NCBI GenBank assembly: GCA_949294335.1
Contig: CASFGO010000030.1
Span: 62,001-126,000 of the forward strand
From: an uncultured bacterium
GTDB lineage: Bacteria > Cyanobacteriota > Vampirovibrionia > Gastranaerophilales > Gastranaerophilaceae
Direction: 5' to 3'
DNA length: 64,000 nt
How positions within the stretch are numbered: the first letter of the stretch is position 1; the number at the start of each line of letters is the position of its first letter. The notes beneath the pieces are model-generated. The model ran no database searches and was not told the DNA's origin. It saw only the letters and a list, made by a program, of their open reading frames with translations. Positions 20,182-54,205 of the stretch are shown here, piece after piece. The position numbers were made by a program, and so were the translations under genes.

Positions 20182-20245
20182 GATTATATCTTATAAATTA
20201 TTTAATTGATAATTAATCATTTATAAAGTTTTCTCCTTATTAAAA

Positions 20246-27700: not shown

Positions 27701-29087
27701 TAGACAATATTTATTCCCATTAGTAACAGTTAAAGGTGGAATAACTTATTATAATAACAATTTTTATAAATTTGATAATCTCACAATAAAAACACAAGCT
27801 CCTACAGATGCAAGAATTTTCAATGTTGTATTTAGAAAACCTACTATTAAACATGGGCAATTTACATCTGACTTAAGAATTAATGGAAAGTCTACATCTC
27901 CTAAAATTATCGGCGATTTAGTAATTAATGGTATGGATATGCCATTTTTAAACACAAATATAAAAGATTTATCACTACATTTTAATGACAATGACATTTA
28001 CATCCAATCAAAAGGAGAAGTAATGTCAAATAATGTTGTGATGAACGCTGTTGTTAAAAACAAATTCGCATCAGAATATATAATTAAAAAAGCAGATATT
28101 GCACTTAAACACCTTGATATGAATTCATTGATGTCAGAATTAAAACAATTGGAATTAAGAACTTTTAATGAAAATCAACCAAAAGTTAATACAGGATATA
28201 ATCCTAATGTAATGAATTCTCTTATAATAAACAATTTAACTGTTCGAGCAGACAGCATTGTTATTAAAAACATCAAAGCAAATAATCTTAAAGCAGAATG
28301 TTCATTAAATGAAAAAATGCAATTTGCAGTAAAAAAATTCAGCTTTGATATCGCTGATGGAGAAATAACAGGAGGAATAAATCTTAATTTATTAAATAAC
28401 ATATTAAAATTAAAGATTAATGCAGATAGTGTTAATGCTAATGATATATTAACTGCTGTTTTTGATGTTCCAAATCAAATCTTTGGAAAACTAACAGGAA
28501 CTATTGAAATAATGACTAATGTTACAAATGATATAACAAGTAAAGAAACATTATCAGGTAAAGCAACATTTACTGTAAGAGATGGTAGAATGCCGAAACT
28601 TGGTTCATTAGAATACTTATTAAAAGCAGGAAACACTTTAAAAAGTGGGATTACAGGAATTACAATGAATAGTATTATTGACCTTATTACACCACTTAAA
28701 ACAGGTGAATTCTCTAGCATAAACGGTAATATGATAATTAAGCAAGGTATAGTAGAAAACATCGAAATTAATTCAATTAGCAAAGATTTGAATTTGTTTA
28801 TTAAAGGTAAATACAATTTAGTAACAGAAATTGCTGATATGAAGGTATTAGGTCAATTATCAAGAAAAGTTTCAACAATTTTCGGAACAGTTGGAAATAT
28901 TTCTATTAATTCAATTTTCAATAAAATTCCGGGGGTAAATTTGGATGAGAATAGTCAATTGATAAATGAATTAAACAGAATACCAGGGATAGAATTATCA
29001 AACAAAGCATATAGAAAATTTGTTGTAGAAATCTATGGCGACCCTAACTCAGATAACAACGTTAAGAGCTTCAAATGGATTAACTAG
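24714..29087 (+). CDS. Giant AsmA/TamB-like envelope protein
   Basis: 1457 residues. One N-terminal membrane anchor (YIILFLIFYLIWAIGLPQLF, about 8-27) is followed by a very long repetitive beta-rich region with many Asn, Ile, Lys and Asp residues. The pattern of strands (VKGNILLGSLITG-like, VNGQPFKVDG-like) and the C-terminal AsmA-type signature (GKATFTVRDGRMP, IIKQGIVENIEI, then EIYGDPNSDNNVKSFKWIN) match AsmA-like proteins that form periplasmic bridges for lipid transport to an outer membrane. This fits an envelope with two membranes. The exact subfamily (YhdP-like or other) cannot be settled. Confidence 0.8.
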   Translation: MLKKYFKYIILFLIFYLIWAIGLPQLFKVNIGNIENLIEKQSGYKINLIEPALNTWFPPHLKIKAKSVEVLNKNTSKALLIENPYLNIKVLPLLIGRCHIRMVEASNIESNFILAGNQLYLGDYLIDFAKQNNINVKVDRIKIEKYKISLFDKNSNMPAKLIGQNLYYKETRNYIISSSENNLILGNDTSNANFDIKIPKHRFIKGAKVNLNIDNLRIKSFENLIKLFLKDEILAVDGVINIKSDNSNLDAIFDNLHVITKDKGKTIIFPKKFVIDTDFLLKSNNIIIHSFKADGGNIHSEVSGEIRKFTTLKPIFNLHIKMDKSDVREIANMLPPVVVPTFNVYRLKMYPFYGYAIADMKVKGAFPEPTMDGYVDVSEAYLIKPIPNAKKANININFIEKHMELDVVVPAGNNQTVYVTGRINDYGDYRADLKIRSSKSVDLATAEFVLNPLHEILRFLMGPVPIMQVTGKGNINIRVIGSKKNPHIWGDFNFMNANASFNDVKHLVLKNATGKLSFNDRTAHFVNNTGTVNNQPFKVDGVCSLFGDIDFNVTGNNQPLNVLLATIKDSPMLEPIKAIVPDIKNAKGKIDLKLNLTGKLPDINYIKLNENLFAKGEIRLKDNSMLLNGLPIKRIRGLIKFNNLDLEVNLNNILDDFSKINITGEIKKGIANVVASSNRMNLREFTKDIFNELDDCYVQFNAEYQGRIDKIELDKIKCKGQVLRNNKPIKNIKILTGNLELNNSKLKLNNVYGFVKHNPFNVNLTINNISEDLRKIKIDSDLNIKNFDLSSLNYFTSSSLIPKEIKSELRKFRIISGNSDVSAKIRNNRVNANLDLKNINAIYIYKRPIPIRLIHGQIVIKNNRIFINKMNYLVDEMPVLIYGNISQVLSNPRLNIHINSKLSQRTFDKYWNEDNIYPIKVKGDILLGSLITGTLDKINTRLDLKLEENSHIYYMGATVGDFENPITVNTDFDIIKNNVIRLNKFQYSKLLSSQNNRQYLFPLVTVKGGITYYNNNFYKFDNLTIKTQAPTDARIFNVVFRKPTIKHGQFTSDLRINGKSTSPKIIGDLVINGMDMPFLNTNIKDLSLHFNDNDIYIQSKGEVMSNNVVMNAVVKNKFASEYIIKKADIALKHLDMNSLMSELKQLELRTFNENQPKVNTGYNPNVMNSLIINNLTVRADSIVIKNIKANNLKAECSLNEKMQFAVKKFSFDIADGEITGGINLNLLNNILKLKINADSVNANDILTAVFDVPNQIFGKLTGTIEIMTNVTNDITSKETLSGKATFTVRDGRMPKLGSLEYLLKAGNTLKSGITGITMNSIIDLITPLKTGEFSSINGNMIIKQGIVENIEINSISKDLNLFIKGKYNLVTEIADMKVLGQLSRKVSTIFGTVGNISINSIFNKIPGVNLDENSQLINELNRIPGIELSNKAYRKFVVEIYGDPNSDNNVKSFKWIN

Positions 29088-29299
29088 GGGTAAAGGGGTA
29101 AATATAATTAAGTCATTACGAGGAATAAAAGTTTTTATTGTTCCGAAATAATCTGATATAATTAGGGTTTTATTTTTCGACTTCTTTGTCACTTTTTCAC
29201 TTAGTCACCTAGTCCTTAACATATAAAGATTTGGTTAAGGTATTTCATGTTTTTGATATAATTGAATAAGTTAACGAGAGAAGAAAAGAAAGCGAGAAG
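29088..29299. repeat. GGGGTAAA words and a third palindromic-repeat copy
   Basis: The stop codon of the AsmA-like gene lies inside CTAGGGGTAAAGGGGTAAAT. Then GTCATTACGAGGAATAAAAG...TTCCGAAATAATCTGATAT (from 29112) matches the repeat at 20594, and CTTTGTCACTTTTTCACTTAGTCACC matches the tail of the 71-base repeat. No ORF. Confidence 0.65.
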
Positions 29300-41859: not shown

Positions 41860-41989
41860 ATCCCTATTTTACTAAAAAAAACTCTTACATGTTTGATTAT
41901 TACAAAAGGTAAAGGGATGAGAGAGGGTATATAAACTTTTATTGTATCTTACATTTAAAATTTATTAATTTTACTCATAACACTCATTT

Positions 41990-42054
41990 ACCCCTACCCC
42001 TATGCATTTACCCCTGGACATTTACCCCTGGGCATTTACCCCTGGGCATTTGCA
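41990..42054. repeat. 14-base tandem repeat at the 3' end of atpG
   Basis: On the minus strand the unit AAATGCCCAGGGGT occurs in four tandem copies, with changes in the third and fourth, followed by AGGGGTAAATGAG. The first copy supplies the last codons of atpG, including its stop (CAG GGG TAA). The same GGGGTAAA word occurs at 15234, 29090, 53928 and 57524. Confidence 0.8.
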
Positions 42055-51305: not shown

Positions 51306-53930
51306 ATGTTAAAGCTTCTAGCAAAATTATTGGGTGGATCAAACGAAAAGAAAATTAAAGATGTTATGCCAATAATTGATCATATTAATGCTTTAGAACC
51401 TGAGTTTGAAAAAATGTCAGACGAAGAATTGAGAGCAAAAACTGATGAATTTAAGGAAATATTAAAAAATCGTCCAACTTCTGACAATATTAAAGCTGAT
51501 AGAATTCTAGAAAAAGAAACCCTTGATAAAATTTTACCTGAAGCTTTTGCTACAGTTCGAGAAGCTGCTAAAAGAACTCTTAATATGCGTCATTTTGATG
51601 TCCAATTGTTAGGTGGTTATTTCTTGCACAATGGACACATTGCTGAAATGAGAACAGGGGAAGGTAAAACATTAGTTGCGACCCTTCCTGCTTATTTAAA
51701 TGCTCTAACAGGAAAAGGTGTTCACGTTATCACTGTTAACGATTATTTGGCAAAACGTGACAGTGAATGGATGGGAAGAATTTATAGATTCTTAGGATTA
51801 ACTGTCGGAGTAATATTATCAGGTGGCAGAAATGAAATGGAATTTGAAGATAAAAAAGCTGCTTATGAATGCGATATTACTTATGGAACAAATAACGAAT
51901 TTGGTTTTGACTATTTAAGAGATAATATGGCTGGTTCCTTGGATATGTTAGTTCAAAGGCCTTATAACTATGCAATTATTGATGAAGTTGACAGTATTTT
52001 AATCGATGAAGCTAGAACTCCATTAATTATCAGCGGGAAATTAGAAAAATCTGCTGACACATACAAGTTAATGGCAAAAATTGCTCCTCTTTTAGAAAAA
52101 AATAAAGACTATGAAGTTGATGAAAAAAATAAAAACGTAATTCTTTCAGAAGAAGGTATTGATAGAGCGCAAGAATTAATCGGATGTAAAGATTTATTTG
52201 ATATATCAACTCAATATGCTCATCACTTATTACAAGCATTAAAAGCAAAAGAATTATTTATAAAAGATACTGATTATGTAATCAAGGATGGCGAAGTTGT
52301 AATCGTTGATGAATTTACAGGTCGTTTAATGGAAGGCAGACGTTGGTCTGATGGGTTACACCAAGCTGTTGAAGCTAAAGAAGGGGTTAAAATTCAAGAT
52401 GAAACTCAAACTTTAGCAAGTATTACATTCCAAAACTTGTTCAGGTTATATCCAAAATTATCTGGTATGACAGGTACTGCGATGACTGAAGAAGCTGAAT
52501 TTGGTAAAATCTATAACTTAGAAGTTACAGTAATCCCTACAAATAAAAAAGACATTAGAATAAATTATCCTGATGTAATTTATAAAACAGAAAGAGCTAA
52601 ATTTAATGCAGTAGTAGAAGACATTATTGCACAACATAAAATTGGTCGCCCTGTTTTAGTAGGTACAATTAGTATTGATAAATCAGAATATTTATCATCT
52701 TTATTAAAAAAACGCGGAATTAAGCATAATGTTTTAAACGCAAAATATCACGAAAAAGAAGCGTATATTATTGCTCAGGCAGGTCGTTATGGTGCTGTAA
52801 CGATTGCAACAAACATGGCAGGTCGTGGTACTGATATTCTATTAGGTGGTAATGCTGAATATTTAGCAAAAGAAATGTTAGATAACAGAAAATATACTCC
52901 TGATAAAACACCAAATTATGAAGAAAAGAAAAATGAAGCATTAGCAGAAGCTAAAAAAATCACAACAGAAGAACATGATAAAGTTGTTGAAGTTGGAGGC
53001 TTACATGTAATTGGTACTGAGCGCCATGAATCAAGACGTATTGATAACCAATTAAGAGGTCGTGCTGCAAGACAAGGCGACCCTGGTTCTACTAGATTTT
53101 TCTTATCTTTAGAAGATAATTTGATGAGAATATTTGGTGGCGACAAATTAGTTACCTTAATGAATATGATGAACGTAGAAGAAGATATGGCTATTGAATC
53201 TGGCTTAATTACTAAACAAATTCAATCTGCTCAAAGAAAAGTTGAAACATATCACTTCGATATTCGTAAAAACGTACTTGAATATGATGACGTTATGAAT
53301 ATTCAAAGAGAAAAATTCTATGCTCAACGTAGAAAAGTTTTAGCAGGAGGAAATTTAACAGAAGATATAACATACATGATGGAACAAGAATTAGATAGAA
53401 TCTTGAAAAGTTATATTTCTCCTGAAATGCCTGTTGATGAATATATATATGATGACTTGGTTACAATGGTAAAAGAGATTCATTCAACCGTTCCACAATT
53501 AGATTATTTGAAAGTTGATGATATAAAAAATATGCGTTATGAAGAGATGTATGACAGATTAAAAGAAGGAATGTTAAACGCATATAGAGATCATGAAAAA
53601 GAAGTAATAACTTTCTACAACGATGTTATGAAAGAATACAATCCTGATAGAGAACCTGAAGAAATGTACGCAGATGATAATGTAATGCGCCATATTGAAA
53701 AAGATATTTTATTAAGAGTTGTTGATAACAAATGGATTGACCACTTACACAATATTGATATGCTAAAAGATGGTATTGGTTTGCGTGCTTATGGACAAAA
53801 AGATCCATTGATTGAATATAAACGAGAAGCTTATGACTTGTTCAATAATATGATGCATGAGATTCAAGGTGATACCGTAAGATATTTATTCAGAACCAAA
53901 TTCGGAGTTCAATTCGTAACCGAGGGGTAA
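51306..53930 (+). CDS. secA: Preprotein translocase ATPase SecA
   Basis: 874 residues. DEAD motor with [20 protein letters not shown] (about 115-134), [33 protein letters not shown], and the second motor domain with [15 protein letters not shown] and [20 protein letters not shown]. It drives proteins through SecYEG. It ends at [13 protein letters not shown] without the usual C-terminal zinc-binding tail. The stop codon (GGG TAA) lies in an AGGGGTAAAT repeat word, which may have replaced the original tail. Confidence 0.97.
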
Positions 53931-53949
53931 ATGTAAGGGGTAAAGGGAA

Positions 53950-54071
53950 GAACTCTGCAAGGACGATTAAGTATCGTCCGAAGTAGAGGCATCCTCCGAA
54001 GGAGGAGTATAAAAATATAAGAGCTAAAGGAACTCTATAAGAATGATTAAGTCTCATTCAGATTAGAGGCA
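53950..54071 (+). ncRNA. Tandem structured RNA element with compensatory changes
   Basis: Two 42-base copies (53950-53991 and 54030-54071) lie exactly 80 bases apart. Each has an outer CTCT/AGAG and an inner hairpin: GGACGA/TCGTCC in copy 1 and GAATGA/TCATTC in copy 2. Two of the six inner pairs have changed on both sides (G-C to A-T, C-G to T-A), keeping the stem. Between them is TCCTCC-GAA-GGAGGA. Strand is uncertain; plus is assumed from the position after secA. No known RNA class recognised. Confidence 0.55.
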
Positions 54072-54151
54072 GATGAGTCAAAACTTATTCTGCGAACCGT
54101 ATGGAAATATTAGGGATAAATATACCTAAGTAAAAAATTTTTTATTTATAT

Positions 54152-54184
54152 TAAAAAACGGGGCTTTTTTCAAAGTCCCGTTTC
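54152..54184. terminator. Bidirectional terminator between secA region and phosphorylase gene
   Basis: ACGGGGC and GTCCCGT pair across a loop containing TTTTTT, with an A-run on the left and T-run on the right. It serves at least the minus-strand phosphorylase-like gene. Confidence 0.75.
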
Positions 54185-54205
54185 TTATATGATTTTATCT
54201 TTTAA

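Follow-up and report, generated by a model that had tools for sequence, protein, structure and literature searches.

What are the two similar hairpins that stand behind secA in a genome of the Gastranaerophilales, and do they belong to secA at all? A reading of the sequence alone had taken them for an RNA element of that locus. The window in which they lie is the whole stretch of DNA analysed here, 64,000 nucleotides (64 kb) in length. Read directly from the sequence, copy 1 is GAACTCTGCAAGGACGATTAAGTATCGTCCGAAGTAGAGGCA (53950-53991, + strand) and copy 2 is GAACTCTATAAGAATGATTAAGTCTCATTCAGATTAGAGGCA (54030-54071, + strand), with a distance of 80 bases from start to start, exactly as had been described. 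The inner stems are GGACGA/TCGTCC in copy 1 and GAATGA/TCATTC in copy 2 and do differ at two pairs, each of them changed on both sides. The position given for the pair was also right: the intergenic gap measures 275 bases (53931-54205) and extends from the stop codon of a gene identified by Pfam as SecA to the end of an opposed carbohydrate phosphorylase ORF on the other strand, although the phosphorylase terminator is a probable one, recognised by eye. In the window the pattern GAACTCT-N15-35-AGAGGCA has two occurrences, against an expectation of 0.01, and the folding of 53931-54130 has a z-score of -5.4 relative to shuffled sequences. None of 4227 Rfam families matched the window at gathering score, in agreement with the earlier remark that the element resembled no known RNA class, and the 64 kb contain no tRNA gene.

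The 42-base hairpin is only part of the repeat. Both copies carry a second hairpin, of differing kind, which is TCCTCC-GAA-GGAGGA in copy 1 and a decayed form of the GGTGAGTC..GCGAACC type in copy 2, and in both of them a GTAT..AAATAT tail follows. Since second hairpin and tail continue each copy, the repeat unit is about 70-85 nt long and not 42 (Table 1). The surroundings are themselves repetitive: an intergenic repeat of the GGGGTAAATG type has 15 matches in the window against 2.0 expected, among them 41985-42042, 53924-53946 and 29087-29104, and the elements insert into or beside it. A weak match to the search profile R1 (see below) at 20198-20237 on the - strand contains a GATTAATTATC core without the outer stem; it may be a decayed copy or a chance match and was excluded from the counts.

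Table 1. Positions in the window of the inserted elements behind secA, their parts and the sequences next to them
Feature	Position	Strand	Remarks
Free type II element, copy 1	53948..54019	+	AAGAACTCT...AGAGGCA hairpin, TCCTCCGAAGGAGGA hairpin and GTATAAAAATATA tail; R1 match 64.8 bits
Hairpin 1, copy 1	53950..53991	+	Outer stem CTCTGC/GTAGAG (one G.U), 2x3 internal loop, inner stem GGACGAT/ATCGTCC, loop TAAGT
Hairpin 2, copy 1	53992..54006	+	'A' kind, TCCTCC-GAA-GGAGGA with GNA triloop
Free type II element, copy 2	54027..54111	+	More decayed; hairpin 1, 'B' hairpin and GTATGGAAATATT tail; R1 match 57.1 bits
Hairpin 1, copy 2	54030..54071	+	Inner stem GAATGA/TCATTC; the next pair is a T-C mismatch
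Hairpin 2, copy 2	54072..54098	+	'B' kind; a decayed form of the genus consensus GGTGAGTCAGAACTTGTTCTGCGAACC
Host repeats of the inserted elements	53923..53947	+	GGGGTAAAT-type intergenic repeats; the empty site of relatives reads through here
Inverted repeat ACGGGG..CCCGT	54158..54184		Probable phosphorylase terminator by eye; uncalled in the consensus scan; also present at empty sites

Comparison with other genomes revealed that the pair belongs to a dispersed repeat family. A 211-base query matched 9 of 58 related genomes at E<=0.001, including seven of the eight genomes of the genus, with several copies in each, often in tandem. Hairpin 1 is common to the copies, and the second hairpin is of one of two kinds, TCCTCCGAAGGAGGA (the kind of copy 1) or GGTGAGTC..GCGAACC (that of copy 2). 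Some copies are nearly identical (96% identity between separate loci of genome G000). A profile built from 20 copies (R1) matched 11 of the 58 genomes strongly (E<1e-4), other genera included, while its weak matches formed tandem arrays with a spacing of 97-145 nt in front of tRNA genes. A second profile (R2) represents a sister core, type I, which reads ACTCTGCCGA..GATTAAGTATC..GAGAGG. Both profiles serve for searching only, and all statements on structure rest on gap-free alignments. R2 found type I in 254 of 286 genomes and 35 of 50 genera of the order Gastranaerophilales. Of 292 genomes drawn from across the phylum 125 matched, all within this order except for one weak match (G437, E=0.003) which we take as chance. 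At least 80 loci came from a scan with the type I pattern, assigned to Candidatus Gastranaerophilales, to Melainabacteria and in some cases to rumen MAGs under other labels. Searched with R2, the 64-kb window yielded the two copies behind secA as its sole matches at E<=1, so that type I and type II share a core. We found no description of these repeats in the open-licence literature, absence from which is not proof of absence from print.

The sequence-only reading had suggested that relatives be searched for the element and its neighbouring genes noted. Relatives do carry the family, but the neighbours of the free copies are mixed and do not represent one gene class. Around the dispersed type II clusters the left-hand frame was co-directional at 10 of 20 sites and the right-hand frame opposed at 14 of 22 (open frames, not annotated genes). 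Free type II copies thus have no fixed position or orientation beside one kind of gene, and type I has a fixed place in front of tRNA genes, though its presence varies. In one type II copy (L005:1532-1620, on G007:C2) the second hairpin is apparently inverted and leads into the element's own left flank, copied in inverse orientation.

That pairing matters, as the two copies in the window had suggested, is borne out by strong covariation among relatives. In a gap-free alignment of 40 distinct type I sequences 99.0% of the cells were paired and 64 cells showed double changes, compared with 21.3 after shuffling; structures slid along the alignment reached at most 73%. The corresponding values were 99.5% and 19 against 4.8 for 13 type II sequences, and 97.8% and 6 against 2.5 for the 7 distinct sequences of the window class. 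The stems are thus kept in further copies of both types. Read on the + strand, 24 cells were G.T and 2 were A.C, and because G.T pairs outnumber A.C it seems to be the + strand, as a single strand, that is constrained. One column pair alone contributes at least 13 of the 24 G.T cells, so this bias is suggestive and not proof.

The two stem versions in the window do not, on the other hand, record an event at this locus. The double changes had been called compensatory, but both versions occur at other loci as well (GGACGAT at L002 and L010; GAATGAT at L005, L012, L018 and L019) and must predate the insertion here, so they did not arise in place as repair. The two versions are old sub-lineages, both of which are found outside the window. 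When two copies of a repeat differ by compensatory changes, folding is proven, but not a local RNA function.

The same junction in relatives indicates that the pair arrived recently. The 3' end of secA, used as anchor across the genus, was found in all eight genomes, and the junction anchor was not found in G001. The secA/phosphorylase junction is without the element in three genomes, which are 95% (G007), 92% (G004) and 91% (G003) identical over the query; G002, G005 and G006 have a different sequence after secA. At a second site, G004:C12, a copy is present in G004 and lacking in both G002 and G003. The type II element L078 of G012 is interrupted by a type I hairpin, its sister copies L076 and L079 being unbroken, and AGAG is present at both ends of this nested insertion; the transposons compared were those of the Y1, reverse transcriptase and integron integrase kinds only. 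As far as the sequences tell, the copies behind secA are a recent and lineage-specific insertion, made as a pair, into intergenic repeats. The difference could instead be the result of loss in the three relatives, though the closest match, at 95%, is empty. Recent spread of the family is indicated by the empty sites within the genus together with the near-identical copies in G000. In being non-autonomous, dispersed and gained between relatives the family is MITE-like.

Several candidates for the mobilising enzyme or the origin of the family were considered and rejected. Seven Y1 transposase genes were found in five of the eight genomes of the genus, but Y1 is missing from G003, G004 and G007, which are rich in copies. 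The Y1 (RAYT-like) genes L031-L037 are flanked by hairpin repeats of their own, of the GTAGG..CCTAC type, and the family motif was at none of the Y1 flanks among the matches listed. Mobilisation by Y1/RAYT was rejected on these grounds, namely absence from copy-rich genomes and flanks that carry another repeat. Reverse transcriptase (PF00078) occurs in 13 of 33 genomes and is absent from G000 and from the relatives G001, G002, G004 and G007, all four of which bear copies, and a resident enzyme of this kind is thus not consistently present. An integron origin was dismissed because none of the 33 relatives has an integron integrase over the TIGR02249 cut-off, and a phage origin because viral_contigs held no exact match to two patterns.

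The type I relatives are associated with tRNA genes. A tRNA follows within 700 nt downstream at 64 of the 80 type I loci listed. Thirteen of the 16 loci without one end near a contig end; the others are L226, an initiator-tRNA leader beside Ns, L213, which has no tRNA, and L208. At the last of these (L208:2590-2700) the core lies within the D-arm of a tRNA-Met that is otherwise complete; this might be a real interrupted tRNA or an assembly collapse. A type I unit begins with a copy of the first 6-18 nt of the tRNA together with its leader, followed by the core and often by sense and antisense pieces of the D-arm of the same tRNA; an A+T-rich spacer with a AACTGAATA-like motif then leads to the intact tRNA. 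Two of the 86 linked units were left out because their flank is shorter than 10 nt. Among the other 84, the 10 nt before the core are identical to the 5' end of the unit's own tRNA in 54 cases and to that of a tRNA of another kind in one. Antisense complementarity to the own tRNA exceeded that in all 10000 permutations for 57 units, drawn from the 64 tRNA-linked loci as the nearest unit within 140 nt that has a clear 3' end. For the 29 tRNAs of G000, where leaders with an insert of neither type I nor type II were included, direct copy and antisense each exceeded all 20000 permutations. A 5' copy of at least 10 nt was found at 10 of 29 tRNAs in G000, 2 of 21 in G063, 0 of 22 in G045 and 0 of 20 in G358, a genome from outside the order. 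Of 46 second hairpins in type I units, 21 are capped by a GNA triloop. Four loci compared with Rfam gave nothing but a tRNA above its cut-off, and we could not match the pattern, hairpins in duplicated stretches in front of tRNA genes, to anything known. A third insert kind, CTAGGCGA..GAAG..GTTCAAAAT-like and unmatched by R1 and R2, has the same layout of 5' copy and antisense in the G000 leaders L092, L093, L098, L100 and L102 (Lys-TTT, Phe, Asn, Asp and Met). In the leader of tRNA-His from this genome (L113) the copied part extends over 29 nt of tRNA sequence, and the antisense piece is directed at the anticodon arm instead of the D-arm.

Comparable traces surround type II copies that are not linked to a tRNA. 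At 10 of 22 such clusters a direct repeat of the left flank, at least 12 nt and up to 57 nt in length, stands behind the element, compared with 9 of 4400 shuffles (two of the 24 clusters were skipped for their short flanks). Eight of these ten repeats end exactly 3 nt before AACTCT, and at seven of the ten an inverted copy of the junction (at least 9 nt, 9-16 nt in these cases) precedes the second repeat. Repeat A is absent at 12 of the 22 sites, that in the window included. The order A - E - rc(junction) - A - B, where E is the element, is thus one signature across different targets, which include tRNA genes and some reverse terminators. Its occurrence at different targets points to an insertion mechanism more than to a leader function.

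A leader function nevertheless has to be weighed, and the presence of type I in so large a part of the order could also mean that it is useful. According to this explanation the tRNA-linked form would be a functional leader RNA controlling the maturation of the tRNA through strand exchange: the antisense piece would capture the D-arm, the upstream 5' copy would take the acceptor stem, the core would be a sensor or protein site, and the copies in the window would be escaped pieces. Units do occur across the order with strongly conserved core residues. In predicted folds of leader plus tRNA from G000 the 3' strand of the tRNA pairs with the upstream copy for 12 of the 13 tRNAs that bear a unit, and the mean folding gain is -7.8 kcal/mol with the own tRNA and -1.2 with others (0 of 10000 permutations). 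However, this swapped acceptor-stem fold follows from any such duplication, and the upstream copies drift. Of 49 changes in nt 1-7, some of them misalignments, 41 break the pairing with the tRNA 3' strand (28 units with an unalignable upstream copy, fewer than 7 of 11, were left out), and selection for this pairing is accordingly not supported. Moreover, the units are patchily present at a given tRNA between genomes, and the insert at one and the same tRNA (Pro, Leu-TAA) is of type I in some genomes and of type II in others. Because changed copies mostly break the pairing, presence is patchy and insert kinds swap, a mobile element is our preferred explanation and the switch its main, if unlikely, rival.

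The local setting also lends itself to an explanation in which the window copies are a cis-acting RNA of the secA 3' UTR with a role in stability or termination, for they lie on the coding strand 20 nt past the stop codon of secA and in front of a probable terminator, and their fold is a strong one. Against this stand the empty junctions in G003, G004 and G007 and the other copies, which adjoin unrelated frames in either direction. The empty sites led us to reject a secA cis-element, which is now most improbable, and with it goes the original idea of an RNA element belonging to the secA locus: what is seen there is a lineage-specific insertion of a dispersed repeat. It is very unlikely, too, that the copies are dead remnants of an older MITE-like transposon which is inactive now, with covariation inherited from its active period. 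Copy 2 is visibly decayed and no resident Y1, reverse transcriptase or integron integrase accounts for the copies, but the empty sites and near-identical copies mentioned above point to recent spread.

A mobile hairpin family of this kind has partial parallels. REP and REPIN elements, which are moved by RAYT (Y1) transposases, are likewise short multicopy intergenic hairpins that occur in tandem and for which single-strand folding is important. The family described here differs in that several copy-rich genomes have no Y1 and that the Y1 genes present are flanked by another repeat; REP elements, moreover, are not known to carry copies of the target sequence that are specific to each locus. In integron attC sites the folded single strand also counts for more than the sequence, and tandem arrays are formed, but the present family has no cassette genes and no integrase over the cut-off among the 33 relatives. 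Integrative elements in tRNA genes bring a partial tRNA copy with them so that the gene stays intact. This is the case here as well, with the differences that the insert is only about 60-130 nt long, has no integrase and duplicates the 5' part of the tRNA. MITEs and the Rickettsia palindromic elements, the latter about 150 bp long and in many cases in frame inside ORFs, are small non-autonomous repeats of several families that are gained and lost between relatives (PMC10969869). In our family we saw no terminal inverted repeats belonging to a known transposon, and none of the 24 dispersed clusters falls inside an open frame of at least 90 aa. The repetitive and double hairpin elements of fungal and sponge mitochondria, as described in another study (PMC2800124), are mobile, vary in number between lineages and move by an unsettled mechanism with a DNA or RNA intermediate. 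They share mobility, lineage-specific numbers and an unsettled mechanism with the family described here, which is bacterial and inserts with a copy of the 5' part of its target and an inverted junction.

We conclude, with a probability of roughly 0.7, that the window copies belong to a family of mobile hairpin elements of the Gastranaerophilales, non-autonomous and small (two hairpins in about 70-85 nt), and were inserted as a pair behind secA. For such an element to propagate, the + strand would have to fold as a single strand, either ssDNA or RNA, and this requirement may explain why there is covariation in the stems but an invariant loop (TTAAGT) and foot (AAGAACTCT/AGAGGCA). Insertion would involve a fold-back or template-switch step, with the type I core entering the D-arm sequence of tRNAs. 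The product, as seen at tRNA genes and some reverse terminators, consists of a partial upstream copy of the target (A), the element (E), the inverted target junction and then the intact target A-B. Because intact A-B remains downstream, the host gene is left uninterrupted, and the direct repeats A would then permit tandem units. The element would presumably depend on host or transient enzymes, for example on replication template switching at single-stranded hairpins or on an enzyme from outside.

The interesting part is therefore not the local site but the repeat family, and above all its tRNA-linked relatives. Tentatively, and with the odds rather against it, these may constitute a distinct new class, in which a single-stranded element recognised by its structure copies the flank of its target, leaves an inverted junction, enters the tRNA D-arm harmlessly and builds tandem tRNA-mimic leaders across an order, some of which, in some lineages, might have become strand-exchange controls of tRNA maturation. 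If this is true, a mobile element would be invading essential RNA genes without harm, and it would leave a readable scar, a direct copy and an inverted junction, from which the chemistry of insertion can be derived. Should the leaders in front of tRNAs prove to be switches, they would represent a new mode of control over individual tRNAs.
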